Shown here: positions 1 through 26,880 of the stretch, in pieces
Layout: each line of letters starts with the position of its first letter
How positions within the stretch are numbered: the first letter of the stretch is position 1
From: Allobranchiibius huperziae
GTDB taxonomy: Bacteria; Actinomycetota; Actinomycetes; Actinomycetales; Dermatophilaceae
DNA: 64,000 bases
Reading direction: 5' to 3'
NCBI RefSeq assembly: GCF_013410455.1
Contig: NZ_JACCFW010000001.1
Span: 1,876,929 to 1,940,928 of the forward strand
Program-made: the position numbers and the translations under genes
Notes under the pieces: generated by a model
The model's database searches: none
Told to the model about the DNA's origin: nothing
The model's input: only the letters and a program-made list of their open reading frames with translations

Positions 1-32
1 CTCGCCTCGTGCAGGGGATGAGACACGTCCAT
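1..32 (-). CDS. N-terminus of an unidentified gene in the heptose-kinase operon (partial)
   Basis: Only the first ten codons are inside the window (MDVSHPLHEA). The ATG overlaps the stop of the heptose kinase as TGATG, and a GGAGAGG sequence lies 9 nt upstream inside the kinase gene, so translational coupling is likely. In heptose-nucleotide operons the neighbour of the kinase is often a sedoheptulose-7-phosphate isomerase (GmhA) or a nucleotidyltransferase. Ten residues are too few to choose. Confidence 0.45.
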   Translation of the reverse strand, partial: MDVSHPLHEA

Positions 33-1256: not shown

Positions 1257-2438
1257 GTGCAGCGCTTCCGGATGCTCGACCTGCTGCGCGCGCTGGCGGC
1301 CGCCCTGGTCGTGCTGACGCACGTCGCCTTCTGGACAGGCGCCGACCACCTGGACGTCTCCGGGCCACTGCTGGCACGCGGTGACGCGGGCGTCGCGGTG
1401 TTCTTCGCGATCTCGGCGTTCCTGCTGCTGCGCCCGTTCCTGCGTGCCGGGCTCACGGGCGGATCGACCCCGGATCTGCGCCGGTACGCCGTACGCCGGG
1501 CCGCCCGCATCCTGCCCGCCTACTGGGTCGCGCTGGCCGCCGTCCTCCTCGTCGCGGCCCTTGCCCCGGTGCGCACCGGGGGCGTCGGATCGCCGCTGGA
1601 CGTCGTGTTGCACGTGCTCGTGCTGCAGGGGTACTCCGGCCACACCTACCAGTCGTTCTCGCAGACCTGGAGCCTCACCACGGAGGTGACCTTCTACGTG
1701 CTGGTGCCCGTGATCGGCACCGTGCTCGGACGGCTGGCCCGCCGCCCCCGGCGGGTATGGCCGGTGCTCGGCGCGACCCTGCTCGCGGGGTTGTGCGCCC
1801 AGGGCGCCTCGGCCGCATGGACCGGCGTCGATCCGCACTCGGGCGCGGGAGTGCTCGCCACCTCGGTGCTGGGCCACGGGGGGTGGTTCGCCGCGGGCGC
1901 CGCACTCGCCGTGCTCACCGAGACGGGGCCGTCCGCGCTGGCGAGCCCGGTACGCCGCTGGCTGGACTTCGCGCGGACCAACCCGGGCGTCGTCGTCCTC
2001 GGGGCCGCACTGCTCTTCCTGCTCGCCGCCACTCCCCTCGCCGGACCGGTCGACCTCCACGCGCCGACTCCGGCGCAGGCCGTCGTCAAGGAGCTGCTCT
2101 ACACGGGCATCGCCGCGCTGCTGGTGCTGGCGGCGACCAGCCCGGTGCGCGGCACCGTGGCGCGCGCGGCGGCGGGATCGCCCGCCGCACGCTGGCTGGG
2201 CGACGCGTCCTACCCCGTCTTCCTGTGGCACGTACTCGCTCTGCAGGTGGTCTACCTCGTGACGTCCAGGGCCCTGTTCACCGGCGCGTTCACGACGACG
2301 CTGGTCGCGGTGACGGCGCTGACGATCGTGGTGGCGCGGGTGTCGGTGGGCCTGGTGGAGCGGCCGGTGCTGGCGCAGGCCCACCGCCGGACCCGGTCCG
2401 CACCCCGGCAAGACACCGCGCCAGCAGGCACGCCGTGA
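1257..2438 (+). CDS. Acyltransferase-3 family membrane protein (O-acetyltransferase-like)
   Basis: 393-aa polytopic membrane protein of the acyltransferase-3 family (OafA/NolL type). It has the N-terminal R-x-L-D-L-L-R-A start of TM1 followed by LTHVAFW (the family's active-site His region), the basic RRAARILPAYW segment after the second helix, WSLTTEVTFY, and the C-terminal VERPVL motif after the last helix. These enzymes move acetyl or other acyl groups from a cytosolic donor to sugars across the membrane. It has no SGNH domain, unlike the two paralogues at 21980-25929. A GTG start at 1257 is chosen because a G-rich GGGGGT lies 9 nt upstream and the family motif begins a few residues later. 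The last 149 bp overlap the convergent AftD-like gene in antisense. The conserved final helix of this protein lies in the overlap, so this frame is the constrained one. Confidence 0.85.
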   Translation: MQRFRMLDLLRALAAALVVLTHVAFWTGADHLDVSGPLLARGDAGVAVFFAISAFLLLRPFLRAGLTGGSTPDLRRYAVRRAARILPAYWVALAAVLLVAALAPVRTGGVGSPLDVVLHVLVLQGYSGHTYQSFSQTWSLTTEVTFYVLVPVIGTVLGRLARRPRRVWPVLGATLLAGLCAQGASAAWTGVDPHSGAGVLATSVLGHGGWFAAGAALAVLTETGPSALASPVRRWLDFARTNPGVVVLGAALLFLLAATPLAGPVDLHAPTPAQAVVKELLYTGIAALLVLAATSPVRGTVARAAAGSPAARWLGDASYPVFLWHVLALQVVYLVTSRALFTGAFTTTLVAVTALTIVVARVSVGLVERPVLAQAHRRTRSAPRQDTAPAGTP

Positions 2439-5400
2439 CCGTGCCGGCCAGCTGACCGAGGATCGCCCCGACAGACCGCTGGTCGACCACACCGAGCGAG
2501 GCGAGCAGGACCCCGGCGACCGCCATCGACCCGCCGATCCCCCACCCGACCAGCCGCCGCGGCACCAACAGACACAGCGCCCCGACGACGACGCCGGCGA
2601 GCCCGCTCATCAGCACCCCGACCCCGACCGACAGCACCGCGGCCATCACGGTGACGCGCGTCGGGCCCGGTGCCGCACCGTCGTACGACGGGTCCGTCAC
2701 GTCGGGTCCGTCGGCCACGGCCCGCCGCCCGCGTCGGCGGCTGCCCACCGCAAGCACGGCCAGCGCCAGAACCGCCAGCGCGCCGACGATCAGTCCGGCC
2801 CGCTGCCAGCGCGTGGGCCCGAACGTCACGTGCAGGGTCGCCGCCGCGCCGGCCGGCACCACGAATCCCTGCCGCCAGCCGTCCACCCGCACCGCGGGCA
2901 GCGAGCGGCCGGCGAGCGAGGCGTGCCATCCACGGTTGTAGCCCTCGGTCAGCGCCACCACCCGCGCACCTCCCCCACCGATCCGGACGGTGCCGTCCCC
3001 GGATCGCAGCGCACCGTAGGCCCGGGCAGGGATGGACGCGCCGGCGTCGACCCCTGCGGATGAGTCCCGCCGCAGGTAGACCAGCTCCGCGCGCACCCCG
3101 TCCCCGGGCGCCACGGACACCGTCTGCGGCCCGACGGCCACGGCCGCCGACGTGGCGCACGGCTGCGCACGAAGGAGTCCGCCCTGCGCGACCTGCGCCG
3201 CGGAGGCCGTGAGGCGCAGCGGCACCGATGACGTGCCGATGCGCAGCACGCCCGCCTGGCCGCACGCGAGCTGCAGTGCACCGGCGCCGCTCGCGGCGGA
3301 GCGGACCCAGACGCTCGGCACGACCTGACCGGACCGGGAGAACGTGACCCTGCGACGCAGCGTCGCCGGGTCCTCCCCCTGGGTCGCGGCGGTGCTGTGC
3401 TCCCGCGGGTCGCGCCGCAGCAGGACCGACGTCCGCGTCGGGTCGACCCGACCCGGCAGCGAGATGATGCTGCCGAGCTGCTGCCCGGGCACGGACACCC
3501 GCGTCAGACCGATGACCGGGTCGGTGGCGGCGCCGGCGACCTTCAGGTCGATGCGCACGGCGCCGGTCGCGGCGCGTGGCAGTCGCAGGCGCAGCGCGGT
3601 CTGACCGCGTGCCACCCGCACCGTCGCGCCGTGCACCGCTCCGACCGACACGCGCACGGAGCCGACCCGGTCCAGCCCCGGCCCGGAGGCGAGGTCGACG
3701 TCGACCTCACGCAGCGGCGTCCGCGAGGTCGGGGTGAAGGACAGACTCGCGTCCGACTCGTGGTCGCCGGTGCGCCAGGCGGTGTCCGGGTCGTCGTCGA
3801 AGGCCGCGGCGATGCCGGCGCCCGGTCCGGCGTACGTCCGGGCGGTCGGGTCCGCGCCCGAGGACGAGGCCGACCACGAGGACATCCCGATCAGCTCACG
3901 GACCGGCTGGTTCGCGGGGTCGCCGCCGGGCGGCAGGTCCCGGGCGCCGATGTGGTCCGGTGTCCGGTCGGCGCCGGTCAGCGTCGGGCTGTAACCGTCG
4001 GCGGCGGACACCCCGTTGTTGTACGAGCGCCACCGCAGCGAGTCGGTCACGACGTTCGGCACGGTCGCACCCACGGCCGTCGTGCCCCCCACGATCTGCG
4101 CCCCCTGGTCCGGTGCGAGCGCGCCGACGGTCGCCAGGTCGAAGATCGATTCCGGGCCGCCGACCACCCGGAGGTCGTCGTCCCGTGCGTACGCCGCGAC
4201 GGTGCGCGACTCGCTCACCGTCCAGAGCGTCAGGCGGTCGGTGCCGGTGCCGGCGGACCCGGCGTACGCGAATCCCGGCGACCGGCGCAGCGTCGCTTCC
4301 ACCAGCGACCACGGCTGCGCGCCGACGGTGGAGGCGATCGAGTGCCGCACCACGATGCGCGCGATGCCCATCCGGGCCAGGCCCGCCGCGAGACCTGGCT
4401 GCACCTCCCCGGACGACGCGAGCTGGTCGGCGGTGTCGAGCATCCGGGTGGCGCCCGGCTCCCCCAGCGGTGCCGCGGCCCGGAACACCAGCGGGGAGGC
4501 CGCGAGCGCGCTCATCGGGTCATCACTGGTGGTGCCCCAGTCGTACGTCGCGGTGCGCGCGTTGGGGAAGAGCAGCGTGCTGCCGCCGGCCCGTTCGGCC
4601 GCGGCATCGATGCGGTGCGCCATCACCGACCAGGACACCGGGACGGCGCGGTAGCCGCCGGAGTCGGCGAGCCGGCCCTGCCAGATCGGGGTCATGGCCG
4701 CCGCGACGAGGACGACGAGGGCAGCGGCGGTGAGACGTGCGGCCACCTCGCGGGAACGGCGCAGCCGGTCCAGCACCACGGCGAGGCCCAGCACCACCGG
4801 CAGCCGGATCAGCGCGTCGGCCTTGTGCACGTTGCGCAACGGCGCCAGCGATCCGTCCAGCAGGGCACGCGCCTGTCCCGCCACCGGGCTGCCGACGACG
4901 CCGTGGTGCCCGATCGTCATGAACACCGTGCCGACGAGGACGCTCAGCAGCGCGAACCGGCCGAGGTGGGAGCGCAGCCGGGCCACCCCGACGAGCCCAA
5001 TGCCCGCCACGGCGCTGGTCGCCACGATCGACACCAGCGACTGTGCGCTCGTCCACCCCGACTGCCAGGTCGGGTGTCCGGCCGAGTCCAGGATGTAGGC
5101 GATCCAGTCGGAGTTCCCGCGCAGCACGTTCGGCGTGGAGGTGACCGCCGTGGTCATCGAGGCCGTCTCGATGAAGTCCAGGAACGGGTAGCCGTATCCG
5201 CCGAGGACGAGCAGCGGCAGCAGCCACCACAACGCGCCGGCCAGGACGCCGAGCACCCACCACCCGATGCGGCGACGACCCTGCGGGTGGGTCAGCAGGA
5301 ACAGGAACGGGATGACCAGCATCAGCCCGGACGCGGCGGCGTTGACCCCGCCGAGGGCGGCGGCCAGCAACCCGCTGGCCGCGACCGACCGCAGCACGCC

Positions 5401-5967
5401 CCGCCGGTCGAGCTCGGCGCGCAGGAGCGGCCGGGCGGCCAGCACCAGCCACGGTGCCACCGCCATCGGCCACGCCTCGCTGGAGTTCTCGGCCAGGAGG
5501 GTCAGGACGCGGGGGCAGAGCGCGTACGCCGCTGCCGCGAGCAGCGCGACGGACGGTCCGGCCAGCCGCAGCTCGCGAACGAGTCGCTGCACGCCGAGGA
5601 ACGCGACCAGCAGCAGGATCGTCCACCAGACCCGCTGGCACGCCCACGCCGGCAGACCCAGGGAGTGGCCGATGCCGAAGACGGGGCCCATCGGGAAGAG
5701 GTAGCCGTAGGCCTGGTTCTGCAGCTCTCCGAGGCCCGCGTGCCCGTTCCACGCGTCGACCGAACGCGCCAGGTAGGTCCACGGGGAGAGCGTGAGGTCG
5801 ATCTTGGTGTCCGGCTGCACCTCGCCCGGCGCGACGAGCCACGGCAGCAGCGCCATCGCCAGGACCGCCAGGACGCGGATGACGCGCGCCCGATCCGGCG
5901 GGCTGCCGGCCGGCCGGTGGTGACTGACCCGGTCCACGACGCGGAGGGTCTGCGCCTCGCCGGACAT
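2290..5967 (-). CDS. AftD/DUF3367-like giant membrane glycosyltransferase (GT-C)
   Basis: 1225-aa protein resembling alpha-(1->3)-arabinofuranosyltransferase AftD of mycobacteria (DUF3367 family). TM1 spans about residues 29-48 and is followed by the acidic loop motif DTKIDLTLSP, matching the D-x-K loop of AftD-type GT-C enzymes. About a dozen helices fill the N-terminal 450 residues, then comes a long extracytoplasmic region, including a discoidin/CBM-like stretch around the YAGPGAGIAAAFDDDPDTAW segment (D-D-x-D-T-A-W), and more helices near the C-terminus. The start ATG overlaps the stop of the upstream methyltransferase gene as TGATG, so both are probably co-translated. AftD is normally about 1400 aa and works with decaprenyl-phosphoarabinose. 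The donor and acceptor here are unknown. The last ~45 residues are a Gly/Pro/Ala/Ser-rich tail that lies antisense to the acyltransferase gene and may be a read-through extension. Confidence 0.78.
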   Translation of the reverse strand: MSGEAQTLRVVDRVSHHRPAGSPPDRARVIRVLAVLAMALLPWLVAPGEVQPDTKIDLTLSPWTYLARSVDAWNGHAGLGELQNQAYGYLFPMGPVFGIGHSLGLPAWACQRVWWTILLLVAFLGVQRLVRELRLAGPSVALLAAAAYALCPRVLTLLAENSSEAWPMAVAPWLVLAARPLLRAELDRRGVLRSVAASGLLAAALGGVNAAASGLMLVIPFLFLLTHPQGRRRIGWWVLGVLAGALWWLLPLLVLGGYGYPFLDFIETASMTTAVTSTPNVLRGNSDWIAYILDSAGHPTWQSGWTSAQSLVSIVATSAVAGIGLVGVARLRSHLGRFALLSVLVGTVFMTIGHHGVVGSPVAGQARALLDGSLAPLRNVHKADALIRLPVVLGLAVVLDRLRRSREVAARLTAAALVVLVAAAMTPIWQGRLADSGGYRAVPVSWSVMAHRIDAAAERAGGSTLLFPNARTATYDWGTTSDDPMSALAASPLVFRAAAPLGEPGATRMLDTADQLASSGEVQPGLAAGLARMGIARIVVRHSIASTVGAQPWSLVEATLRRSPGFAYAGSAGTGTDRLTLWTVSESRTVAAYARDDDLRVVGGPESIFDLATVGALAPDQGAQIVGGTTAVGATVPNVVTDSLRWRSYNNGVSAADGYSPTLTGADRTPDHIGARDLPPGGDPANQPVRELIGMSSWSASSSGADPTARTYAGPGAGIAAAFDDDPDTAWRTGDHESDASLSFTPTSRTPLREVDVDLASGPGLDRVGSVRVSVGAVHGATVRVARGQTALRLRLPRAATGAVRIDLKVAGAATDPVIGLTRVSVPGQQLGSIISLPGRVDPTRTSVLLRRDPREHSTAATQGEDPATLRRRVTFSRSGQVVPSVWVRSAASGAGALQLACGQAGVLRIGTSSVPLRLTASAAQVAQGGLLRAQPCATSAAVAVGPQTVSVAPGDGVRAELVYLRRDSSAGVDAGASIPARAYGALRSGDGTVRIGGGGARVVALTEGYNRGWHASLAGRSLPAVRVDGWRQGFVVPAGAAATLHVTFGPTRWQRAGLIVGALAVLALAVLAVGSRRRGRRAVADGPDVTDPSYDGAAPGPTRVTVMAAVLSVGVGVLMSGLAGVVVGALCLLVPRRLVGWGIGGSMAVAGVLLASLGVVDQRSVGAILGQLAGTVTACLLARCLAGVRTGSGGGPAPAPAAPPGPPTPAPPRSSAPSPRPASS

Positions 5968-6683
5968 CACCGTCGGCGCAGCACGAGCAGCAGGTTCCAC
6001 GTCAGCAGCTCGCGCAGCCCCGGCACCCTCAGCAGGTGCCGCGCCACGTCGGGCAGGTACCGCGGGCGGGCGACCAGCACCTCGACCTCGGGTTGCGCCT
6101 GCGCCCAGCGCAGGCCCTGCGCCACGCTGATCCGGTAGAGCGTCTGGTCGACCGTGTTCTTCGGCGGGTGACCGTGCTTGCGGGTGTAACGGCGCGCCGC
6201 GCGCTCGCCGCCCAGCCAGTGCCATGGCGACGTCTCGTGCCCGCCCCAGGGCGAGAGCCAGTTGGTGTAGGAGAGGAAGACCAGTCCGCCCGGGCGCACG
6301 ACGCGGACCAGTTCGTCGGCGACCTGCTCGGGGTGCTCCACGTGCTCCCACAGGTTGCTGCTGAAGACCAGGTCGACGCTGCGGTCGGCCACCGGAAGCG
6401 CCGCGGCGGTCGCGACGAGACCGCCGTCACGGACCGACGGGACCGCCGGGTCGTGGTCGACCGGCACGTAGCGCGCGCCCGCGGCGCGGAACGCGCTGGC
6501 GAACTCGGCCGGCCCGGCGCCGACGTCCAGCACCGAGGCACCCCGCAGGTCGGTCAGCTCCTGCAGCATCTCGATCGAGTCGGCCGCCAGCGCGCCGTAG
6601 AACACCTCGGGCCGACTTTGCTCGAGGGTGAACGCGTGGAAGAGCCGGGCGGACCGCGCGAGGCCGCGACGCTGCGCGCTCAT
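5967..6683 (-). CDS. Class I SAM-dependent methyltransferase
   Basis: 238-aa cytosolic methyltransferase (Methyltransf_11 type). Motif I VLDVGAGPAEF is at about residues 48-58, an acidic residue ends strand 2 in VPVDHDP, and motif IV/V is FSSNLWEHVEHPEQVADEL followed by VRPGGLVFLSYTN. The W-rich stretch WLSPWGGHE is common in methyltransferases of glycan clusters. It sits between a second methyltransferase (ATGA overlap) and the AftD-like gene (TGATG overlap), so the three form one translationally coupled operon. A sugar or lipid-linked glycan substrate is inferred from context only. Confidence 0.82.
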   Translation of the reverse strand: MSAQRRGLARSARLFHAFTLEQSRPEVFYGALAADSIEMLQELTDLRGASVLDVGAGPAEFASAFRAAGARYVPVDHDPAVPSVRDGGLVATAAALPVADRSVDLVFSSNLWEHVEHPEQVADELVRVVRPGGLVFLSYTNWLSPWGGHETSPWHWLGGERAARRYTRKHGHPPKNTVDQTLYRISVAQGLRWAQAQPEVEVLVARPRYLPDVARHLLRVPGLRELLTWNLLLVLRRR

Positions 6684-7564
6684 CGGGGCCGCCGGGCGAT
6701 CAGGTGCAGGGTGGGGCGCATGGTGGGCCGCACCGCTCGGGCCGCCAGCACCAGCGGTGCGGAGGCGAGCCCGGCGGCGATCACGCTGCGGGAGGCCAGC
6801 ACGCCGCGTGGACGGGGAGCAGGACGCCAGCGGCGTACGGCGCTGGCGGCGTCCGTCGTGAGGCTGTCGAGCACCGGCCGGCGGACCACGACATCGACGA
6901 AGCCCGCGTCGGTCGCGGCGCGCGCGAGGCTGTCCGCCGTGAAGAACCGCACGTGGGTGGGGTCCTCGAGCATCCACCACGCCGATCCGTAGAGGCGTAC
7001 TCCGTCGCTGTCCCCCGCCGGGGTGAGGAACTGCACGACTCCCCTAGGCCGCACGAGGTCGAACGCCACGGCCAGCGTCGCGACCGGGTCCAGGACGTGT
7101 TCGAGCACGTGGATGCCGTAGACCAGATCGACCGGGTCCGCGCCGTCGCGCAGCACGTCCTCCACACTCCCCCCGGACAACCTGCCCTGCGTCACGACGA
7201 GCGGGTCGACGCCGATCCGCAGCTGGTCGGGGTCGGCGCCCGCGATCGTGGCGCCGCCGTCGAGGAACCGCCGCAGCATCGACCCGCTGCCGTAGCCGAC
7301 CTCGAACACCGACCGCGGCGCGTCGCCCGGCACGGCGCGCAGCATCGCCCGGTAGGTCAGGTCCAGCCGGATCCGGTCGAGGGTGGGCTCACCGCCGTAG
7401 GCCAGGTCCCGATGCGCGGCGGGTGAATCGCGAAGATCGCGCAGCAGATGACCACATCGCTCGCACCGGGCGAGCGCGCCGCCGCCACGCAGTGCGCGCG
7501 GGCGCAACCGGGCGCGGCAGATCTCGCAGTCCTCGCGGATCGCGGCGACACCCGTGGCGGCCAT
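6680..7564 (-). CDS. Class I SAM-dependent methyltransferase with N-terminal Cys4 motif
   Basis: 294 aa. Residues 13-37 carry C-x2-C-x17-C-x2-C (Cys13, 16, 34, 37), a zinc-ribbon-like motif seen in sugar C- or O-methyltransferases of polysaccharide loci. The SAM domain follows, with motif I FEVGYGSGSML at about 87-97 and GIHVLEHVLDP as the post-IV signature. This is the first gene of the minus-strand operon that continues through the 238-aa methyltransferase and the AftD-like gene. An OmpR-type direct repeat lies 33-48 nt upstream of the ATG. The start was chosen at the ATG preceding AATGVAAIRED because the Cys motif follows at once. The frame stays open further upstream, but that extension overlaps the divergent glycosyltransferase. 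Confidence 0.8.
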   Translation of the reverse strand: MAATGVAAIREDCEICRARLRPRALRGGGALARCERCGHLLRDLRDSPAAHRDLAYGGEPTLDRIRLDLTYRAMLRAVPGDAPRSVFEVGYGSGSMLRRFLDGGATIAGADPDQLRIGVDPLVVTQGRLSGGSVEDVLRDGADPVDLVYGIHVLEHVLDPVATLAVAFDLVRPRGVVQFLTPAGDSDGVRLYGSAWWMLEDPTHVRFFTADSLARAATDAGFVDVVVRRPVLDSLTTDAASAVRRWRPAPRPRGVLASRSVIAAGLASAPLVLAARAVRPTMRPTLHLIARRPR

Positions 7565-7596
7565 CTCGACTGGTATCCCTTTCGTTCTACCTAGGA

Positions 7597-7612
7597 GTAA
7601 CTTCGGCGTTAC
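7597..7612 (+). promoter_or_regulatory. GTAAC-N6-GTTAC direct repeat (OmpR-family-like site)
   Basis: Two pentamers, GTAAC (7597-7601) and GTTAC (7608-7612), are separated by 6 nt and so repeat at 11 nt, one helical turn. The site lies between the divergent methyltransferase (start 7564) and glycosyltransferase (start 7712). The pattern resembles the direct repeats bound by MtrA- or GlnR-type response regulators. No protein binding can be shown from sequence. Confidence 0.35.
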
Positions 7613-7711
7613 CCTATCCGTCGGTGCGTGCAGGACCCGGCGTACGGCATGGCGCACGAGGACCGGGATCGAACGGACGGTCCGCGGCGACGGACACCAG
7701 GAGGAGTGCAG

Positions 7712-9070
7712 GTGAGCGGCGACGCTGACACGACATCGGCCAGCAACGTGCCGATGCGCATTCTCTACCTCTCGTGGCGTGACCGGGAGAACCCGGAGGC
7801 GGGCGGCGCGGAGACCTTCACCGAACGCACCGCACAGATCCTCACGGAACGCGGCCACCGCGTCACCATCTTCACCAGCCGCTTCCCAGGTGCCCGCGCC
7901 GTCGATCGGCACGGCGACGTGGACGTCGTACGCCGCGGGGGCCGCTTCACCTGCTACCTGCGGGGCATGCTGTACGCCGCCCGCCACCGCGGCGACTACG
8001 ACGTGGTCCTCGACGTGCAGAACGGGGTGCCGTTCTGGGCGCCGCTGCTCGCCCGGAACCCGGTCGTGAACATCACCCATCACGTCCATCGGGACCAGTG
8101 GCGCTCGCTCTTCCCCCGGCCGATCGCAGCGGTCGGATGGTTCCTGGAGAGCAAGGTCGCGCCCCGCGTCTACCGCCGCTCGCGGTACGTCACCGTCTCC
8201 CAGGCCACCCGCGCCGACCTCGCGTCGCTCGGCATCGATCCCCAGCGGGTCGACCTCGTCTACTCCGGCAACGACCACCCGGCCGATCTGGAGTCCTACC
8301 GCTCGGTGGCACGCTCGAGCGAGCCGTCCATGACGGTGCTCGGCCGTCTGGTGCCGCACAAGCAGGTGGAGCTGGCGATCGACGTCGTCGCCGACCTGAG
8401 CGACGTGCTGCCCACCCTGACCCTGGACGTCGTCGGCTCGGGCTACTGGGAGCCGCAGCTGCGTGAGCACGCGGCGCAACGGGGCGTGGCCGACCGGGTC
8501 CACTTCCACGGCTTCGTGGAGGAATCGACCAAGCACACCCTGCTCGCGCAGTCCTGGCTCATGCTGGTGCCCTCCCACAAGGAGGGGTGGGGGCTGATCA
8601 TCGTCGAGGCCGGCCTGCACGCCACCCCCAGCGTCGCCTTCGCCGAGGCGGGCGGTCCCAGCGAGTCGATCCTGCACGGACTGACCGGTCTGCTGTCCAA
8701 GGACTACGCCGACATGCGCGCTCAGGCCCGCCTGATCCTGCAGGACGAGGGCCTGCGCGGCCAGCTCGGCGCCGCGGCTCGCGACCACGCGCACAGCTTC
8801 AGCTGGTGGTCGGCCGCCGAACGTCTCGAGCACACCCTGCACTCGGTGCTCGGCCACCGCGCCCGCCCCGACCAGCCGGCCACCCTGGGGCCGGGATCGG
8901 TCGATCTGCAGCAGGTGCACGGGCCGGTGCCCGTCCCGGTGATCGCGCCGGGCGTGCCGGCCGCCCTGGACGTGCAGGACGTGAACGACATCGTCGAGGA
9001 GCACGGCACGGTCGACGATGCCGGCACGCAGACGGCGGACGCCGACGAGCCGGCCGCGCTGCACCGCTAG
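7712..9070 (+). CDS. Glycosyltransferase family 4 (GT-B)
   Basis: 452-aa cytosolic GT-B glycosyltransferase. The N-terminal domain starts with RILYLSWRDRENPEAGGAE, where the GG loop contacts donor or acceptor. The C-terminal domain has GRLVPHKQVELAIDV and the EGWGLIIVEAGLHATPSVAF stretch containing the E-x7-E motif of family GT4. A ~70-residue acidic/Pro-rich tail follows the last helix and is not part of the fold. The GTG at 7712 is chosen because GGAGGA lies 7-8 nt upstream; earlier in-frame starts have no such signal. It is divergent from the methyltransferase operon and ends in a strong hairpin at 9189-9224. Sugar specificity is unknown. Confidence 0.83.
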   Translation: MSGDADTTSASNVPMRILYLSWRDRENPEAGGAETFTERTAQILTERGHRVTIFTSRFPGARAVDRHGDVDVVRRGGRFTCYLRGMLYAARHRGDYDVVLDVQNGVPFWAPLLARNPVVNITHHVHRDQWRSLFPRPIAAVGWFLESKVAPRVYRRSRYVTVSQATRADLASLGIDPQRVDLVYSGNDHPADLESYRSVARSSEPSMTVLGRLVPHKQVELAIDVVADLSDVLPTLTLDVVGSGYWEPQLREHAAQRGVADRVHFHGFVEESTKHTLLAQSWLMLVPSHKEGWGLIIVEAGLHATPSVAFAEAGGPSESILHGLTGLLSKDYADMRAQARLILQDEGLRGQLGAAARDHAHSFSWWSAAERLEHTLHSVLGHRARPDQPATLGPGSVDLQQVHGPVPVPVIAPGVPAALDVQDVNDIVEEHGTVDDAGTQTADADEPAALHR

Positions 9071-9188
9071 ACGACCTACCCCCTCCCGCGCCCACCGTGG
9101 CGCAGGTAAGACCTGGAGCCACAGATCGTCCTGTGTCCCACGGCGCTACCTGTGCCACGGTCGAGCGGTGCGCGATACCCGGCATACG

Positions 9189-9224
9189 GAAAGCGGCCGA
9201 CCCCCGAGGGAATCGGCCGCTTTC
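9189..9224. terminator. Bidirectional hairpin terminator
   Basis: A 12-bp perfect inverted repeat, GAAAGCGGCCGA (9189-9200) and its complement (9213-9224), with a 12-nt loop. It lies between the convergent ends of the GT4 gene (9070) and the small membrane protein gene (9246), so it can serve both. Confidence 0.7.
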
Positions 9225-9245
9225 GCGAAGTGAAGGTGGCGCGCG

Positions 9246-9416
9246 TCAGTTGGAGCTGTCGTAGCTGATCTGCGGGCTGTACTTCTGCGGCTGGGTGACC
9301 GAGTTCTGCTGCGCGACGAGCCCGAAGATGGCGAGCAACGCCAGGATCACGCCGAGCAGACCGCCGCCGATGTTGTAGGCGAGCTTCTTGTTCGTAGCGT
9401 CCATGTCGTGAGTCAT
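9246..9416 (-). CDS. Small single-pass membrane protein, unknown function
   Basis: 56-aa protein with a short polar N-terminus (MTHDMDATNKKLAYNIGG), one hydrophobic helix (LLGVILALLAIFGLVAQ, about residues 19-35) and a polar Gln/Ser/Tyr-rich tail that would lie outside the membrane. ATG at 9416 follows AGAAGGA directly, and a second ATG at 9404 is 12 nt from the same signal; either is possible. It stands alone between the GT4 gene and the large membrane-protein operon, with a terminator behind it and a GTAAC repeat about 80-90 bp upstream. I do not recognise the family. It could be an accessory subunit of the membrane glycosyltransferases. Confidence 0.6.
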   Translation of the reverse strand: MTHDMDATNKKLAYNIGGGLLGVILALLAIFGLVAQQNSVTQPQKYSPQISYDSSN

Positions 9417-9485
9417 TCCTTCTGACGTCTCGGTCCTGCACCAGTGCCCTGCAGGAAGTCTGGGCACATCATAACCACAGAGGGC

Positions 9486-11273
9486 TCAGTCAGGTAACTC
9501 TTCGGTAACCATGCTTCGGCGCGTCGCGACCGCCTCACCCGCCAGGAGCAACGGCGTGAGCGCCAGGCCCACGAGACCGAGGTATCGCCACGCACCGTGC
9601 CGAGCCGACCCGGCCTGATGGTCAGGGTCGGCTCCGAGGTCGTAGAGGATCAGCCCGGACGTACGGACGACCACGGCGCCGCGCGTCCCGGTGGGCAGCG
9701 CGGTGTCCGCGCTGGTCGGCTGGTCGGTCTCGAGCAGCACATACCGCACCCCCGCGGCCTGCAGGGCGGCGCGTACGTCGGTACGCCTTTCGAGGGCCCG
9801 GGTGATCCGGGCGGCGTCCGCACTCTCGCCGCGCACGATCCGAGAGGACAGCGGCAGGTCGTCGTTGACCACCACCTGCCGGTCCAGCAGGCGCTGCCAC
9901 GGGTCGAGCACGACCTGGTCGTGGTCGAACGCGTACCGCCGGTAGAGGGTCCAGGGGAAGACCGCGACGGCACCGGGCGGCAGCGCGGCCACCCGGTCCT
10001 GTACGACGGCGTACGACGCGGGGTAGCGCACCGCCGACCACCGGTCCCCCTGGCCCCACGCCAATCCGGTGAGCACCACCAGGGGCCACAACGCGAGCAG
10101 CGTCGCGACACCGACGGCCGCGCCGCGGTCTGCGCCGACCCCCCGCCCGAGGTCGCGCACCTTCTCGGCCAGCAGCCCCGCGCACACCGCGACGAGCAGC
10201 ACCCACACCGCCACGAACTTCTGCGAGTCGCGCAGCAGGCCGCCTCCCGGAAGATCGGTGACCGCGGCGGTCACCAGGTCCCGACCGCCGGGCAGCGATC
10301 CGGCGCCGGCGATGAGAAGACAGACCACCCCGGCGACGGCGAGCCCGGCGTACGCCGGCGAAGCCCGCCAGGCGCGGGACCACGCGGCGTACCCCACGCA
10401 GACCAGCACCACCAGCAGCGCGAACCCGCTGACCAGCGCCGACGAGCGCCCGGGCGTCCAGGTGCCGGCGTTCCAGATCCCTCCGCCGGTCAGCAGGGAG
10501 CCGAACACGCCCCACGAGGTGTCCGCCCGCGCCATGAACGCCGTCACTCCCGCCGAGTCCGCGGCGCCCGCGGAGGCCGACGGGGCGAGGAAGAGGAAGG
10601 GGAACCACCATGGCGCGTTGGCCAGCACGAACACGCCGACCGCCCAGGCGGTCTCGCGGCCGCGACGAACGCGGCGTACGTCGGGCGTTCCCGGCCGGCC
10701 AGGCACCAGCAGCACGGCCAGCGTCACGAGCAACCCGAGGATCGCGCCGGTCGACCCGGTGAGGGCGGTGACCACGGTCCAGACCCCGAGCCGCAGCCGA
10801 CCGCGAGGGCGGCCGAGGCGCACGTCGGAGGCCGCCGACAGCAGGAACGGGAGCGCGGCGTACCCGAGCAGGAACCCCCAGTGGCCGATGGCGAGCCGCT
10901 CCGCCAGGTAGGCGTTCCAGCTCGCGAACAGTGCCGCGGCGCCCGCACCGAGCCGCGAGGACATCAGCCCGCCGACGCCGGCACCCACCCCGACGAAGAC
11001 CAGGAGCAGCAACGCCTTCTGGACGACCCAGCCGGGCACCACGTGGGAGGCGAGTGCGACGACCAGGTCGTTGGGCACGGCGCGCGGGACGCTGCCGTCG
11101 ACGCCCAGGGTGCGGTCGGACAGATCCAGCCGCGGCACGAAGACCATGTCGTAGAAGAGCAGGTAGCCCGGTCGCAGCGCGGGGCCGAGGGCGAGCAGCC
11201 CGCTCAACAGGCCGACGAGCGCGCCGACGCTGCGGACGCCGAAGCGGGGACGCGCCGCCGCGGGAGGGGTCAC
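9486..11273 (-). CDS. Polytopic membrane protein, GT-C-like, unknown specificity
   Basis: 595-aa integral membrane protein with about a dozen predicted helices. The first external loop reads PGYLLFYDMVFVPR, with an acidic residue in the position where GT-C enzymes carry their catalytic Asp. The C-terminal third has an external segment (about residues 390-540, containing GAVAVFPWTLYRRYAFDHD) and a last helix before VTEELPD. The GTG start overlaps the stop of the upstream glycosyltransferase as GTGA, so translation is coupled. It is the last gene of the four-gene operon beginning with the 1467-aa protein. I read it as a glycan-polymerising or mannosyltransferase-like membrane enzyme, but no named family is certain. 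Confidence 0.7.
   Translation of the reverse strand: MTPPAAARPRFGVRSVGALVGLLSGLLALGPALRPGYLLFYDMVFVPRLDLSDRTLGVDGSVPRAVPNDLVVALASHVVPGWVVQKALLLLVFVGVGAGVGGLMSSRLGAGAAALFASWNAYLAERLAIGHWGFLLGYAALPFLLSAASDVRLGRPRGRLRLGVWTVVTALTGSTGAILGLLVTLAVLLVPGRPGTPDVRRVRRGRETAWAVGVFVLANAPWWFPFLFLAPSASAGAADSAGVTAFMARADTSWGVFGSLLTGGGIWNAGTWTPGRSSALVSGFALLVVLVCVGYAAWSRAWRASPAYAGLAVAGVVCLLIAGAGSLPGGRDLVTAAVTDLPGGGLLRDSQKFVAVWVLLVAVCAGLLAEKVRDLGRGVGADRGAAVGVATLLALWPLVVLTGLAWGQGDRWSAVRYPASYAVVQDRVAALPPGAVAVFPWTLYRRYAFDHDQVVLDPWQRLLDRQVVVNDDLPLSSRIVRGESADAARITRALERRTDVRAALQAAGVRYVLLETDQPTSADTALPTGTRGAVVVRTSGLILYDLGADPDHQAGSARHGAWRYLGLVGLALTPLLLAGEAVATRRSMVTEELPD
9494..9509 (+). promoter_or_regulatory. Perfect GTAAC-N6-GTAAC direct repeat
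   Basis: GTAAC at 9494-9498 and 9505-9509 with a TCTTCG spacer. It overlaps the last codons of the 595-aa membrane protein and lies about 80-90 bp upstream of the 56-aa membrane protein gene, which is transcribed away from it on the minus strand. It is the best match in the window to the MtrA/GlnR-like 11-nt direct repeat. Because it is partly coding, chance is not excluded. Confidence 0.3.
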
Positions 11274-12355
11274 CGGTGCTGCGCCTCGACCGAGGCGAAC
11301 GCCTCCCCCATCCGGGCACACTGCGTCGGCAGGTCGTGCTCGGCGAGCATCCGGGCCCGGTTCGCGGCCCCGACCTCCCGGGCGCGCGGCAGGTCGGTGA
11401 GGAAGTGCAGCAGGCCCTGCGCCAGCTCGTCCACGTCGTCGTCGACCAGCAGGTTCGGCGGCTGCACGGCCTCGTCGTTGGTGCCGCACCGGGTGGTCAC
11501 CACGGGCAGGCCGCACGACTGCGCCTCGAGGTAGGCCAGGCCCAGCTGCTCGGTCCATTTCCAGGTAGCGCGGGGCGCGGTGCAGAACACCGCGGCCGAG
11601 CGCAACAGCTCCGCGACACCGCCGGCGTCCAGGCTGCCGCGCAACTCCACCTGCCCGGGGTGATCGCGTGCCTCCTGTCCGACACGTTCGCGCAGCGGAC
11701 CGTTGCCGGCGACGACCAGACGCGCCTCGGGGACGGTGCGGCGTACGAGCGCCATCGCGTCGAGGACCCGGTCGATGCCCTTGTTCTCCGCGAGCGGGGA
11801 GGTGAACACCACGACCGGTTCGACGGCCGGCTGCGGCGCGGGTGCGAAGAGCGTGGTGTCGACGCCGGGCTTGACGACCTGGATCCGGTCTTCGTGGAAA
11901 CCGTTCTCCAGCAGGTGATCCCGAGCGGCGTCCACCATGCACAGCAGCAGGTCGGCGCCGCGGCTGGCGTGCACGGCCTGCCGGTAGGGCGGGATCTTGT
12001 AGAGCGGCTGATCCGGCAGGTTCTCCCAGGTGATGACGGCCTGCAGCGGGCGACGCGTGCCGCGCGAGCGCCAGCGAGCCGCCTGACCGGTGACCAGCGA
12101 GCACAACTCGAGACTCGTGACCCAGTCGTACGCCGCCGGGTCCTGATCCCCCAGCCCGCGCACCCACGCCAGCGCACCCGCCTCGACGAAGCGCTTCACC
12201 GGGCGCCGGTAGGTGCTCGGCACCCACTCGATGTCGCCGACCGGCTGCTGGGCAGCCAGAGCCGTGACCTGCGTCCGCGGCATGCGGGACATCCAGTAGA
12301 GCTCGCGCCTCGCCCGCTGGTCGGGCAGCGACACCCAGAGCAGGCGACGGCTCAC
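11270..12355 (-). CDS. Glycosyltransferase family 4 (GT-B)
   Basis: 361-aa cytosolic glycosyltransferase. It opens with LLWVSLPDQRARRELYWMSR and has the GT4 C-terminal domain: VVFTSPLAENKGIDRVLDAM, VVAGNGPLRERV and the E-x7-E region EQLGLAYLEAQSCGLPVVTT. The GTG start at 12355 overlaps the preceding gene's stop as GTGA, and its own stop overlaps the following membrane protein's GTG. It is the third gene of a coupled operon: 1467-aa giant, GT2, this GT4, 595-aa membrane protein. Donor and acceptor are not predictable from the motifs. Confidence 0.8.
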   Translation of the reverse strand: MSRRLLWVSLPDQRARRELYWMSRMPRTQVTALAAQQPVGDIEWVPSTYRRPVKRFVEAGALAWVRGLGDQDPAAYDWVTSLELCSLVTGQAARWRSRGTRRPLQAVITWENLPDQPLYKIPPYRQAVHASRGADLLLCMVDAARDHLLENGFHEDRIQVVKPGVDTTLFAPAPQPAVEPVVVFTSPLAENKGIDRVLDAMALVRRTVPEARLVVAGNGPLRERVGQEARDHPGQVELRGSLDAGGVAELLRSAAVFCTAPRATWKWTEQLGLAYLEAQSCGLPVVTTRCGTNDEAVQPPNLLVDDDVDELAQGLLHFLTDLPRAREVGAANRARMLAEHDLPTQCARMGEAFASVEAQHR

Positions 12356-13212
12356 GCGGTCGCCCCGGCGCGGCCCGCCGTACGACGGTCGCGACGCCCG
12401 CGGCGCGCACCGAGGGTGTAGCCGACGACCTCCAGCCCCCGCAGCAGCACCATCCCGGCGGCGTGCGCCGGATCGCGGGCCAGCAGGCCGCGCGCGTCGA
12501 CGTACGACTTGACCAGCGCACGTCCCTGCTCGCCGACGGCTCCCCCGTGCTGACCCTGGAGCGCGGGGATGCTGCGACCGTAGTAGTAGCGCTTGCGCAG
12601 CACGTCGGGCACGGTGAGGTGGCCCTCGTCGTGGTCGACGAGGACGTCCGCCAGCTCGATGCGGGCACCGGCGGCGTGCATCCGCAACCGCAGGTCGGCG
12701 TCCTCCGGCCCGGACATGTCGAGCCGGAATCCGCCGTCGTCGATCAGGAAGTCGCGCCGCACCAGCCGCGGGTTGTGCAGCCACGGCTGGGTCAGGTAGC
12801 ACTCACGTTCCAGTGCCCGGCACGCGGTCCAGAAACCGTCGCCGATGGTTCGTTCGGGCAGAGCGACACCGACTGCATCTGTGTCACGCGCGGTCCGCAC
12901 CGCCGCCGTGATGCTGTCCGGGGGCAGGATCATGTCGCTGTCGAGCCACAGCACCCACTCCCCTCGCGCCGCGGCGATGCCGGTGTTGCGCTGCGCGGAC
13001 CGCTCGGGGCCGGCGGTGATGACGCGGTCGGCGTACCGCTCGGCGATCCGGGGGGTCGCATCCGTGCTGTGGTTGTCGACGACGATCAGCTCGACATCGA
13101 CATGGGTCTGCGCCCGCACCGACGCCAGGCAGGCGTCGATGGTGCGCTCGTTGTCGCGGGTGGGGACGACGACGGAGACGAGTCCGTCGACGTGCTCAGT
13201 GCTGGTGTCCAC
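12352..13212 (-). CDS. Glycosyltransferase family 2 (GT-A)
   Basis: 286-aa GT-A enzyme. It begins with VDGLVSVVVPTRDNERTIDA, has VVDNHSTDATP, the metal-binding DSD in LWLDSDMILPP, and a GPEDADLRLRMHAAGA motif with the ED pair that supplies the catalytic base region. There is no membrane segment. The GTG at 13212 was chosen because the GT2 fold begins about 10 residues later. It overlaps the end of the upstream 1467-aa gene by 17 bp. It probably adds one sugar to the lipid-linked precursor made by this operon. Confidence 0.82.
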   Translation of the reverse strand: MDTSTEHVDGLVSVVVPTRDNERTIDACLASVRAQTHVDVELIVVDNHSTDATPRIAERYADRVITAGPERSAQRNTGIAAARGEWVLWLDSDMILPPDSITAAVRTARDTDAVGVALPERTIGDGFWTACRALERECYLTQPWLHNPRLVRRDFLIDDGGFRLDMSGPEDADLRLRMHAAGARIELADVLVDHDEGHLTVPDVLRKRYYYGRSIPALQGQHGGAVGEQGRALVKSYVDARGLLARDPAHAAGMVLLRGLEVVGYTLGARRGRRDRRTAGRAGATA

Positions 13213-16200
13213 CGGTGAACTCCGGTTCCTTGTCCTGGGCTGGGTCGTGGGGTGTGCGGGTAGGTGTCGGCGGCGGCAGGTAGTCCCGCAACGCACCGGT
13301 GAGCGCGACGAGCAGCCCGGCCGCACCGAGGTAGTGCGGCCAGAGACTGACCGCGACGGCGTCGGCGCTCACCTGACCGATGAGCCCCTTGGCCCACAGC
13401 ACGATCAGATACAGCACCACGGACGCTCCGACCAGCGCCACTCCGGCGGTGATGAGCCACTCGGAGGGCAACGGGGCCCAGCGCAGCACCGCGACCAGCA
13501 CCAGGGCGGTGACCAGACCGGCGTACCCCAGGAAGAAGGTGGCCGCAAGCACCAGCGCGATCTCGACACCGACCCGGCTCATCGGGCCGGGCCACGGCCC
13601 GGCATCGCCGTGCGGCACGCCGTCCGCGCTCGCGGGAGCGCTCGAGCGGACATCGTCGTGCGCTGCCTGGACGGGTTCCCGACCTCGCCCCCAGGGCGCA
13701 TGCCACCGACGTACCAGCGTGGGATCCCGGTCTGCCGCAACAAGGGTCCCTGCGGTGTCGGTGGCGGGCTCGTCGTCGTCCGACTCGCCCGCGCGCGCCG
13801 CCTGGAGGCGGCGCCGTACGGGGCGCCAGAGGCCCGTCGCGAGCAGGATCGCTGCCAACAGCACCAGCCCCGACACCGCGAGGGCCACGTTCGAGGCGCG
13901 CTGCGGGCCGTAGCGGATCCGGATGTCGTAGGTGCCGCCGGACGGCAGCTTCCAGCCGACCGAGTACCCGTCCAGGACCACGGGCTTCCCGAGGTCGCGG
14001 CCGTTGGCCGTGGCGTGCCACCGCGGGTCGTAGCTCTGGCTGATGACCACCGCGAACGCCCCGCTGGAGCGCACCTTCAGTGACTTGGCGGAGGCGGAGT
14101 TGTGCACGTGGGTGACCGTGGGCGCTGCGGGGACCGCAGCGGTGGGCGTGCGGGTGTCGGTCAGCGCGACCGAGTCGAGCGTGAATCCGGGCGCCTGCTC
14201 GATCCGCCGGGAGCCGGCCTGCAGCGAGGTCCGCGCGCAGCCGGTCCACCGGGTCCCCTCGTCGGAGGGACCGGCGAGGACGGACGTCGTGGGCCGCATC
14301 CGGATCGGCTGGCCGTCGATGGTGGCCACCGTGAGGCAGCGCGCCCCGCTGCCGTCGACCTGGTCGAGCGGGCCGGCGCTGCTCATGCGCATCGAGATGC
14401 CCGTGTCGATGCTGGGGAAGCGTGCCGGCAGGCCCTGCGGCGGGGACGTCGCGCCGGTGAAGGTGATGCGAACCGTCCGGCCGGTCACCCGCGGGAAGGT
14501 GACGTCCGTGGTGCCGTCCTCGGTGAGCGCGGTGGTGGCGACACGCTTGCCGTCCACGGTGACGACCGCGGAGGTGGCCCACTGGGTGCGTGTCGCACCC
14601 GTGGTGCGGTCGCCGGTCGCCGGGCTCTGCCGGATCGAGACGGAGTCCACCGAGCGGGTGGGTCCGGCGATCTGCCACCACGAGTTACGCACGCCGTTGC
14701 CCGGCACCCACGCCGTACTCGCCGCGTTCGTGCCGGTGTCGGCGGCTTGAGATGCCCGCTGGGCAGGATTGTCGAAGTAGAACCGGGAGGAGGTCGCCTG
14801 CACGTCGGCGGAGTAGCCGGCGACCCGGTCGTACACCGGCTCCAGCGGCCCGTCGACCCGTACGTCGGCCGCGGTGGTGAAGGTGCGCGCGTCCGGGAGG
14901 GCGACGATCCGGCGCAGGCCGGTCTCCTCGTCGTCGGCCGTCGACGCGGTGCCCTGCAGGCGGGTCAGCAGCACCGAGAGGGGCGTCCGGTCGAACTCTG
15001 CCCGCCCGGCCGCGTCGAGCTGCGCGTACTGGTTGGAGAAGGTCGTCGGGGTGCGCGCGGTGCGGACGGCGAGCGGCCCGGGCATCTTGATGTCGGAGAT
15101 ACCGACGAGGTTGTAGCCTCCGCCGCGCTCGGAGTCGACCGTGACCTTGACGCTGCCGGCCGGCGTGTTGCCCATGGCGAACGACGCGTAGCCGGTGTCC
15201 GGCATCCGCTGGGTCACCGAGCGACCGCCCGCGGTCACCGTGAGTCGGTCGATCTTCGAGCGGCCCACATCGGCCTGCTTGATGCGGATGGTGCCGAGCG
15301 GGATCGGGGTGGGTTCGGTGACGGTGAGGCTCTGGCCCTTCGCGCGTCCGAAGTCACCGAAAAGCCACGCGGTGGACGGGTCGCCGTCGAGTGCGTTCTG
15401 TGGGGCGGCGTACGGCAGGTCGAAGAACGTCCCACCCTCGGACGTCGCGCTGACCTGCGCGCCCGAGGGCACCATCACGGTCTGGTCGTCGGTGTCCGTG
15501 CCCAGGGCACGGGTGCTCGCCGGCGTCTGCGCGGCCGTGAGGAGCGGACCCTCCCCGTTGCTCAGCCGGTTGGTGATGGCGGCGCGTCGCGCGTTGGTGT
15601 CGGTGATGATCAGCCGGTGCTCACCGCCGAGCACGGAGGTCATGTTGCGCGCAGAGATGTCCTGGGCGTACTGGAACGACGGTGCGGCGCTCAGCAGCCC
15701 GGCCGCGGAGAGCTGCGCGATCCCGGATCCGTCGCCGGCGACGACCAGCGAGTTGTCGGTGCGTTCGGCCCGCACCGAGTCCAGCGGATCGACGACGGCG
15801 TACTGCTGCAGCGGCGGCAGCTGGTCCTCGCCGTACGCCTCGGGGTTGGTGCCGGGGCCTTCGGTGTACTCGCCGTCGAAGCCGTAGTTGTGCACGCCGA
15901 AGAGCCCGGGGTCGGACGCCAGCACCTTGGCCGTCGTCGAGGGGCGGGCACCGCCGGCGTCCTCCCAGTCGATGTCGTGGCGCAGCAGGATCGTGTCCGC
16001 GCCGAGGTAGCGCGCATACGCGGACATGGCTGCGGGAGGCACCACGCCGTTCTGCAGGGTGTCGTTGAGCGCGGTGAGGTAGTTGGCGCCGGGCGCGGAC
16101 GCGTTGGGTGTGGTCTCCGGGATGATCACGTCACGGCGGAAGAGGGAGTTGGCCACGTCGTCGGGACGTTGCACGGTCCATCGGTACGACGGCCGGGTCT

Positions 16201-17599
16201 GCCCCGGCAGGAACAGCACCGAGGCGTTCGAGTCGCCCTTGTCGATAGCGGACGCGGCCTGGTGCCAGTAGTCCGGGATGTCCATCGGAGACAGGTAGAG
16301 CCGGTTGGTGAGCGCCGGTGAGACCCAGCCGGTGACCAGGATGACGGCCAGCACAGCGGCCAGTGGCGCCCAGAAGTCCAGGTGCGCGATCTTGCGCCAG
16401 ACCCTCCGCGCCGCGAAGCCGAGCGCCAGCGCGAATCCCAGCGCGAGCAGGGCACCGATCTTGTTGGTCGTGCGGAACGCCGCCATGCCGGGCAGTTGCA
16501 GGAAGCCGACGACGACATGCCCGAACGGCGAGGCGGGAGCAGCCTGCGCGGGGAACGCCCCGACCTCGATGATCGCTGCGACGGCCGCGAGACCGATCAC
16601 CAGCCCGCGCAGCAGACCGCGGCACCAGCGCAGCGCCAACAGGCCGAGCACGGGCCACAGTGCGGTCAACACGATGATGTACGGGCTGGTCAGGTACGAC
16701 GCGTACTGGCCCTCCCACGGTCCGTTGGCGTCGTGCCCGTAGAGCGGCCACAGCCCGAGGCCGCGCAGCACCTCCGGGAACGACCCGACCTTGGCGATGC
16801 CGGTGATGGTCTCGGAGCTGTCGACGATCTGGGACCCGGTGGACAGGGCGGCGGCGGCCGGCACCAGCCAGTAGATCGACACCCCGATGACGAAGAGCGC
16901 GCACTTGAGCAGCACCCGCAGGATGTCGCCCCAGCCGATCTGCCAGCTGCGCCGGGCGAACACCATCAGCGGGAGCAGCGCGAACAACTGCAGGATCGGC
17001 ACGACGGCGACGTTCATCCCGCTCATCGCGAAGAAGACCAGCCCGAAGACGGCCGGCCAGCGCCATGCCCGCGGTTCGCGCAGCGCGCGGACGAAGACCA
17101 GCATCATCCAGGGCAGCAGGGCCATCGGCAGCGCGATCGCCAGCGTCGAACCGGCCTGGATCGTGTACGGGTTCGCGACGTAGAGGACACCCGCGGCGAG
17201 CCCCGCCCACCGGTCCGCGCGTGGTGAGATCGACCGCAGCAGCCGGCTGGCGCCCCACGCCGTGAGCGCCCACAACGCGAAGTGGAAGATCCGGTAGGTC
17301 GTGCCCGCGCTCAGACCGATCGCCCGCAACGGCGCCAGCACCCCGAGCACCGGGACGAGGCCGACGTTGAAGTTGGGTGCCCCCAGGTACGGCGTGCCGG
17401 TCCAGGAGGAGAGGTACTGCCGCACCATCGACCACGGCGCGAGGTACACCTCGGGTTTGATGTCGGTGTAAAAGTGGCCGTATCCGTTGAGGAAGACCAC
17501 GAGCGCCAGCACCAGCAGCAGCGCCGCGACGGAAACGGCGTACCTCAGGTCCGACCGTTTGACGGTGCGCAACATGACAGGCACTGCGGGTCGGCGCAC
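13196..17599 (-). CDS. Second DUF3367/AftD-like giant membrane glycosyltransferase
   Basis: 1467-aa membrane protein. TM1 (about residues 19-38) is followed by HFYTDIKPEVYLAPWSMVRQ, the acidic loop with D-x-K that parallels DTKIDLTLSP in the 1225-aa protein. About 12 helices occupy the first 430 residues. A ~700-residue extracytoplasmic region follows with two discoidin-like segments (around NALDGDPSTAWLFGDFG and NGVRNSWWQIAGPTRSVDSV), where galactose-binding-type domains would bind glycan. Four or so helices close the protein. GTG at 17599 and ATG at 17575 (MLRTVKRSD) are both possible starts; neither has a clear RBS. It is the first gene of a four-gene coupled operon. AftD-type enzymes add arabinofuranose from decaprenyl-phosphate; whether that donor exists here is unknown. 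Confidence 0.76.
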   Translation of the reverse strand: MRRPAVPVMLRTVKRSDLRYAVSVAALLLVLALVVFLNGYGHFYTDIKPEVYLAPWSMVRQYLSSWTGTPYLGAPNFNVGLVPVLGVLAPLRAIGLSAGTTYRIFHFALWALTAWGASRLLRSISPRADRWAGLAAGVLYVANPYTIQAGSTLAIALPMALLPWMMLVFVRALREPRAWRWPAVFGLVFFAMSGMNVAVVPILQLFALLPLMVFARRSWQIGWGDILRVLLKCALFVIGVSIYWLVPAAAALSTGSQIVDSSETITGIAKVGSFPEVLRGLGLWPLYGHDANGPWEGQYASYLTSPYIIVLTALWPVLGLLALRWCRGLLRGLVIGLAAVAAIIEVGAFPAQAAPASPFGHVVVGFLQLPGMAAFRTTNKIGALLALGFALALGFAARRVWRKIAHLDFWAPLAAVLAVILVTGWVSPALTNRLYLSPMDIPDYWHQAASAIDKGDSNASVLFLPGQTRPSYRWTVQRPDDVANSLFRRDVIIPETTPNASAPGANYLTALNDTLQNGVVPPAAMSAYARYLGADTILLRHDIDWEDAGGARPSTTAKVLASDPGLFGVHNYGFDGEYTEGPGTNPEAYGEDQLPPLQQYAVVDPLDSVRAERTDNSLVVAGDGSGIAQLSAAGLLSAAPSFQYAQDISARNMTSVLGGEHRLIITDTNARRAAITNRLSNGEGPLLTAAQTPASTRALGTDTDDQTVMVPSGAQVSATSEGGTFFDLPYAAPQNALDGDPSTAWLFGDFGRAKGQSLTVTEPTPIPLGTIRIKQADVGRSKIDRLTVTAGGRSVTQRMPDTGYASFAMGNTPAGSVKVTVDSERGGGYNLVGISDIKMPGPLAVRTARTPTTFSNQYAQLDAAGRAEFDRTPLSVLLTRLQGTASTADDEETGLRRIVALPDARTFTTAADVRVDGPLEPVYDRVAGYSADVQATSSRFYFDNPAQRASQAADTGTNAASTAWVPGNGVRNSWWQIAGPTRSVDSVSIRQSPATGDRTTGATRTQWATSAVVTVDGKRVATTALTEDGTTDVTFPRVTGRTVRITFTGATSPPQGLPARFPSIDTGISMRMSSAGPLDQVDGSGARCLTVATIDGQPIRMRPTTSVLAGPSDEGTRWTGCARTSLQAGSRRIEQAPGFTLDSVALTDTRTPTAAVPAAPTVTHVHNSASAKSLKVRSSGAFAVVISQSYDPRWHATANGRDLGKPVVLDGYSVGWKLPSGGTYDIRIRYGPQRASNVALAVSGLVLLAAILLATGLWRPVRRRLQAARAGESDDDEPATDTAGTLVAADRDPTLVRRWHAPWGRGREPVQAAHDDVRSSAPASADGVPHGDAGPWPGPMSRVGVEIALVLAATFFLGYAGLVTALVLVAVLRWAPLPSEWLITAGVALVGASVVLYLIVLWAKGLIGQVSADAVAVSLWPHYLGAAGLLVALTGALRDYLPPPTPTRTPHDPAQDKEPEFTGGHQH

Positions 17600-26737: not shown

Positions 26738-26880
26738 TATAGTCGCGGTACGTCCCACATCACGCCCGAGACCCGAAGGAAGTGTCCCGTGCCGCAGCAG
26801 TTGGACGGCCGGTGCCCACCGTCGCGGACGACGCCGTGGCCCCCGCCCGCACCCCGCGCTCGACGGACCCCGGGCATCGG

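Follow-up and report, generated by a model that had tools for sequence, protein, structure and literature searches.

Why would a bacterium carry two giant proteins of the AftD family, known from mycobacterial arabinan synthesis, in a genome with no recognisable route to an arabinose donor? The question is raised by a window of 64,000 nucleotides from the soil-type actinobacterium Allobranchiibius huperziae (Dermatophilaceae; assembly GCF_013410455.1, contig NZ_JACCFW010000001.1, positions 1,876,929 to 1,940,928), in which an initial annotation made from the letters alone had placed two AftD-like proteins outside an obvious mycolate context. We call them AftD1 (2290-5967, minus strand; 1225 amino acids (aa) from an ATG start) and AftD2 (13196-17575, minus strand; 1459 aa from ATG). 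Our answer, which we hold to be probable with a good deal of reservation, is that the aftD-tmaT-lmcA/pgfA-mmpA-GT4-mtrP envelope locus is present here in a non-arabinan form. It would have been extended by a module consisting of AftD2, a GT2 and two GT4 glycosyltransferases, methyltransferases and heptose-sugar genes.

Both giants are of the AftD type, as had been claimed. The GT-C_AftD model (PF11847; cut-off 26) matched AftD1 at 574 bits (E 4.5e-172) and AftD2 at 179 bits (E 1.8e-52), each time over its entire 661 positions, and these were its only matches in the 3.72 Mb genome. Against the cryo-EM structure of AftD (6W98/6WBX), a profile of nine AftD1-type proteins gave 9e-300 and a profile of three AftD2-type proteins gave 3e-30. 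The fold of AftD1 was assigned from this sequence profile, with no structure model; for AftD2, an AlphaFold2 model of residues 1-1100 (pLDDT 80.6) had AftD 6W98 as its best match (Foldseek 3.5e-30; VIA Z 29.4 over 951 residues, rmsd 7.8). The D-x-K loop noticed after the first transmembrane (TM) segment is present in both proteins (D53-T-K in AftD1, D38-I-K in AftD2), and its aspartate is invariant in the aligned relatives (n=9 for D53; n=20 for D38, from sequences that span the phylum). Hydropathy gives 11 candidate TM segments in AftD1 and 12 in AftD2. Two points had to be corrected. Discoidin-like regions, ascribed to both proteins, were found in AftD2: one discoidin-type domain covers about 703-833 of the model (Z about 14 to CBM32-type domains), while F5/8C was detected at 936-1051. 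In AftD1 none reached the Pfam threshold. The size of 1225 aa stands, and that of 1467 aa for AftD2 counts from a GTG at 17599. The closest named homologue of AftD2 is from Allobranchiibius (86%), and the host is related to Dermacoccus, Flexivirga and Janibacter.

The two proteins did not arise by local duplication, since a tree of 32 N-terminal regions places them in two deeply separate clades. The split (100/100) puts AftD1 with mycobacterial AftD and AftD2 with proteins of other Actinomycetota classes, outside the Mycobacteriales clade. With AftD of the Mycobacteriales (Rv0236c/NCgl2757; PDB 6W98) they have in common the PF11847 GT-C domain, the DxK loop and C-terminal TM segments, besides the clade in the case of AftD1 and discoidin-type domains in the case of AftD2. 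In contrast to those enzymes, AftD2 forms a clade of its own, the CBM_AftD domain (PF24607; 226 bits in the mycobacterial protein) was undetected in AftD1 and AftD2, and the genome is without arabinose donor genes.

The absence of arabinan genes had been noted for the window, and the scanned proteins of the window include no product of emb, glf, dprE or a further aft gene. It extends to the whole genome, listed as 100% complete, from which Emb and Glf are absent. DprE1 was sought through the carriers of the ALO domain and then with the DprE1 model; the genome has two ALO proteins, which reach 49 and 64 bits where the cut-off is 500 and a mycobacterial-type control gives 785. The DPPR synthase model, which gives 576 bits on the mycobacterial control, matches no UbiA protein of the genome; the three present are CtaB (heme O synthase), MenA and one that belongs to a type III polyketide cluster. 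With controls that fire, we can thus rule out that one of the ALO or UbiA proteins is an unrecognised DprE1 or DPPR synthase. Because genes for Emb, Glf, DprE1 and DPPR synthase are all absent, the known decaprenyl-phospho-arabinose route is missing in this genome, and with it the donor pathway (DPPR synthase, DprE1) expected of an arabinofuranosyltransferase. As a separate observation, a type III polyketide synthase-like enzyme, a UbiA prenyltransferase, geranylgeranyl-reductase-like proteins and an ABC exporter are clustered at L033:4074-10790.

AftD1, and perhaps AftD2, could still be a true D-arabinofuranosyltransferase that receives its donor from non-orthologous enzymes. AftD1 sits in the mycobacterial AftD clade with a conserved neighbourhood, and whole-cell hydrolysates of Dermacoccaceae possibly contain arabinose (PMC6113628); our literature search found no paper on the wall sugars of Allobranchiibius. 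Against this, the donor and arabinan genes are absent from a genome listed as complete while the controls fire. Polyprenyl pentofuranoses have been proposed to share a UbiA-type phosphoribosyltransferase as their entry step (PMC11127046), and no such enzyme was found in the genome either. We regard arabinosyl transfer as decidedly unlikely.

This strain is no exception in having AftD without Emb, a combination common among Actinomycetota. In a survey of 396 genomes, AftD (counted above 100 bits) occurred in 55, of which 14 have Emb and 41 belong to the 382 genomes without clear Emb. Strong MmpA matches were found in 36 genomes, and 30 of these also have AftD. The two genes share a contig in 27 of the 30, always at most 21 kb apart and, in the Emb-less genomes, at most 8.2 kb. 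Outside the Emb group, 16 genomes have both, 25 AftD only, 6 MmpA only and 335 neither.

Judged by homology, the genes around AftD1 are the counterpart of the tmaT/lmcA-pgfA/mmpA/mtrP/aftD region of Mycobacteriales, because PgfA and MmpA exceed their curated cut-offs and homologues of MtrP, GT4 and the acyltransferase accompany them. PgfA/LmcA (NF053601, PF11271; 246 bits, cut-off 160) lies just upstream of the window (L031:13211-14221), and the MmpA homologue, of 595 aa, is at 9486-11273 (minus strand; NF053599, 365 bits, cut-off 210). The MtrP-like methyltransferase (5967-6683, minus strand; PF08241/PF13489) is 49% identical (BLAST) to the one that a mycobacterial-type genome has in the MtrP position. 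The Acyl_transf_3 acyltransferase in the TmaT position (1257-2438, plus strand; PF01757) shares 32% identity with that of the mycobacterial-type genome G680, where the same gene set adjoins AftD, and a GT4 in an Rv0225-like position (GT4a) occupies 7712-9070 (plus strand; PF00534). Homologues of all five genes of the Corynebacterineae tmaT locus (tmaT, lmcA/pgfA, mmpA, GT4, mtrP; PMC8698533) are therefore found here with AftD, but in an Emb-less genome and with AftD2, a GT2, a second GT4, heptose and AT3-SGNH genes in addition. The claim of a place outside a mycolate context thus holds in that no arabinan genes lie alongside, and fails in that the neighbours are relatives of the tmaT locus. 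PgfA-family proteins have been described as confined to actinobacteria (PMC9678360). A gene of about 900 aa beside the locus in another genome (G049) turned out to encode DNA polymerase I.

The company of PgfA brings up another acceptor, a phosphatidylinositol-anchored lipomannan (LM), in which case the locus would add heptose or mannose-type residues to a lipoglycan resembling LM. Genes of the phosphatidylinositol mannoside (PIM) pathway are in the same window at 29693-32474 (minus strand), namely a phosphatidylinositol phosphate synthase (NF045883, 248 bits against 170), a PIM acyltransferase (353 against 209) and a GT4 in the PimA position. PIMs are present in some Dermacoccaceae, and NCgl2760 (LmcA/PgfA) of Corynebacterium glutamicum is required for full-length LM and lipoarabinomannan (PMC8972800, PMC9678360). 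However, a pdxS-type gene and others separate the PIM genes from the cluster, and their linkage to AftD was examined in this genome. An LM acceptor seems to us possible, if on the unlikely side.

MmpA was reported to have partial homology to the N-terminus of AftD and no homologues outside corynebacteria and mycobacteria (PMC8698533). The matches of the MmpA profile here, in G508 and in G339, a genome of another class, contradict the reported range. The best match of our MmpA model (pLDDT 86.5) in the PDB was AftD (Foldseek 4.4e-08; VIA Z 23.5 over 484 residues, rmsd 4.3), with oligosaccharyltransferases and AftA next. Just past the first TM segment, the loop of MmpA carries D42, which is invariant in 21 sequences across the phylum; it corresponds to D53 and D38 by position only, because hhalign of MmpA against AftD left the first loop unaligned. 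From the modelled fold we infer that MmpA is a GT-C protein with a catalytic role. The opposite case, that MmpA, AftD1 and AftD2 are mainly lipid-transport scaffolds, takes its strength from C. glutamicum, where MmpA, regarded as a delivery protein for trehalose lipids, is described in these terms and its loss blocks the formation and transport of acetylated trehalose corynomycolate (PMC8698533). Yet the loop aspartate is invariant across the phylum in MmpA (n=21) as in AftD2-type proteins (n=20), and the modelled folds of MmpA and AftD2 match active GT-C enzymes. We find a scaffold role without transfer very doubtful.

In the family, HddA-like heptose kinases are confined to genomes with AftD2. 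In a family survey of 188 genomes, 54 carry an AftD pair, 42 a single AftD and 92 none; HddA orthologues (at least 68% identity) occur in 40 of the 54 pair genomes and in 0 of the 134 others. The AftD2 module has the same gene order in 19 loci, from named species and metagenome-assembled genomes (MAGs). In G273 and G192 a compact block of GmhA-like, HddA, methyltransferase, GT4, GT2 and AftD2 genes adjoins the core genes, and a tree puts GT4a of the window with the AftD2-block type. These two features are consistent with a horizontal spread of the block. Two Aeromicrobium MAGs (Nocardioidaceae; L048, L049) carry the AftD2 cluster otherwise found in the Dermacoccus/Janibacter group, by inter-order transfer or mis-binning. 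AftD2 frames are about 1255-1270 aa long in several HddA-less genomes (G188, G190, G191, G193, G180), the usual length being 1400-1500.

In the window, the module includes an HddA-like D-glycero-D-manno-heptose kinase (32-1114, minus strand; NF049969 275 bits, cut-off 600) whose nearest solved structure is a heptose kinase (PDB 3k85, 9.8e-80); a GmhA-like gene lies just upstream, beyond the edge of the window (L031). A sugar-1-phosphate nucleotidyltransferase of GDP-mannose/HddC-like type is at 26812-27927 (plus strand; NF052502 301 bits, cut-off 440; NF049965 HddC 95 bits, cut-off 300; GMPP structure 7d72, 3e-39). The locus therefore resembles the GDP-D-glycero-alpha-D-manno-heptose pathway (GmhA/HddA/GmhB/HddC) in its GmhA-like, HddA-like and nucleotidyltransferase genes, relatives having a GmhB-like one as well, and differs from it in that its enzymes fall below equivalog cut-offs and GmhB is not adjacent. 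The second methyltransferase (6680-7564, minus strand; PF13489; start inferred within the open frame 6680-9064) travels with the AftD2/heptose module, and its counterpart adjoins HddA in G273 and G192. The GT4 of the AftD2 module (11270-12355, minus strand; PF13692/PF00534) is kept in the named species, and the GT2 (12352-13212, minus strand; PF00535), which overlaps AftD2, is kept beside it. To read this GT2 as a Dpm1-type polyprenyl-phosphate sugar synthase is unsupported, as its nearest solved structures are other GT2 enzymes and hydropathy gives it no TM segment.

The remaining genes fit the proposal of a glycan cluster that holds genes for methyl, acyl and heptose decorations, which was borne out by the family matches of the methyltransferases, acyltransferases and HddA/GmhA-like proteins. 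A Polysacc_synt (Wzx-type) flippase-like membrane protein (17778-19076, plus strand; PF01943, 39 bits) is followed by a Methyltransf_24 methyltransferase (19127-19966, minus strand; PF13578) that is linked to AftD2 in most species. A 554-aa membrane protein with about nine TM segments (20112-21776, minus strand) had no Pfam, NCBIfam or PDB sequence match and is possibly a further GT-C. Two AT3-SGNH O-acyltransferases (PF01757 and PF19040) lie at 21980-23977 and 23980-25929 (both minus strand), the first a distant relative of SucT (NF058601, 101 bits); with 101-112 bits against a cut-off of 1275, they are not SucT. Farther along, a DUF222/HNH protein (60503-61969, minus strand) recurs in the genome as an 83% copy at L032:10303-11616 and has relatives near or inside the AftD2 cluster of two Flexivirga species (L035, L038), which suggests a mobile element.

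From these genes we picture the following pathway. Cytosolic GT4 and GT2 enzymes and the methyltransferases would build a lipid-linked oligosaccharide, probably from GDP-activated manno-heptose, and the Wzx-type protein would flip it. Further sugars would be attached on the outer face, where AftD1, AftD2 and probably MmpA, GT-C proteins that all have an aspartate in their first outer loop, would draw on polyprenyl-phosphate donors that are not decaprenyl-phospho-arabinose. The discoidin domains may hold the glycan, the AT3 proteins would O-acylate it, and the PgfA-like protein would handle the lipid end. Three-component extracytoplasmic glycosylation systems (PMC11127046) likewise combine a flippase-like protein with a GT-C that has a carbohydrate-binding domain; unlike in those systems, the locus yielded neither a UbiA-type nor a recognised polyprenyl-phosphate sugar synthase.

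Several observations weigh against a non-arabinan locus extended by a heptose module. No strong MmpA match was found in 25 of the 41 Emb-less AftD genomes, and kinship among the sampled genomes inflates the association statistics and the p-value. In 14 pair genomes AftD2 occurs without HddA, so heptose cannot be its sole substrate. The HddA-, GmhA- and GmhB-like proteins are all below the NCBIfam equivalog cut-offs, and no GmhB stands beside HddA in this genome. The possible arabinose in Dermacoccaceae hydrolysates makes another arabinose donor route conceivable. Apart from these points, mycolates are not expected in this bacterial family, though no search for Pks13 was made.

A bolder extension would see in AftD, MmpA, PgfA, MtrP and the TmaT-type acyltransferase an ancient actinobacterial machinery for an envelope glycan, older than both mycolates and arabinan, in which MmpA is a glycosyltransferase and AftD2 transfers a manno-heptose or a similar sugar from a polyprenyl-phosphate donor. 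We know of no description of such manno-heptose transfer for GT-C enzymes, and taken as a whole this extension is unlikely.

These results bear on how the family is read. If the reading is right, annotation as an arabinofuranosyltransferase from family membership alone would be unsafe. Work in mycobacteria has treated MmpA, PgfA and MtrP, which are essential there or linked to transport, as factors for trehalose mycolates or lipoglycans, and the reports on their roles conflict; our model predicts that MmpA is a GT-C enzyme. The presence of their homologues together with AftD in a genome without arabinose donor genes suggests that the set serves a glycan or glycolipid older than mycolates, and simple culturable relatives are available in which its substrate may be found.

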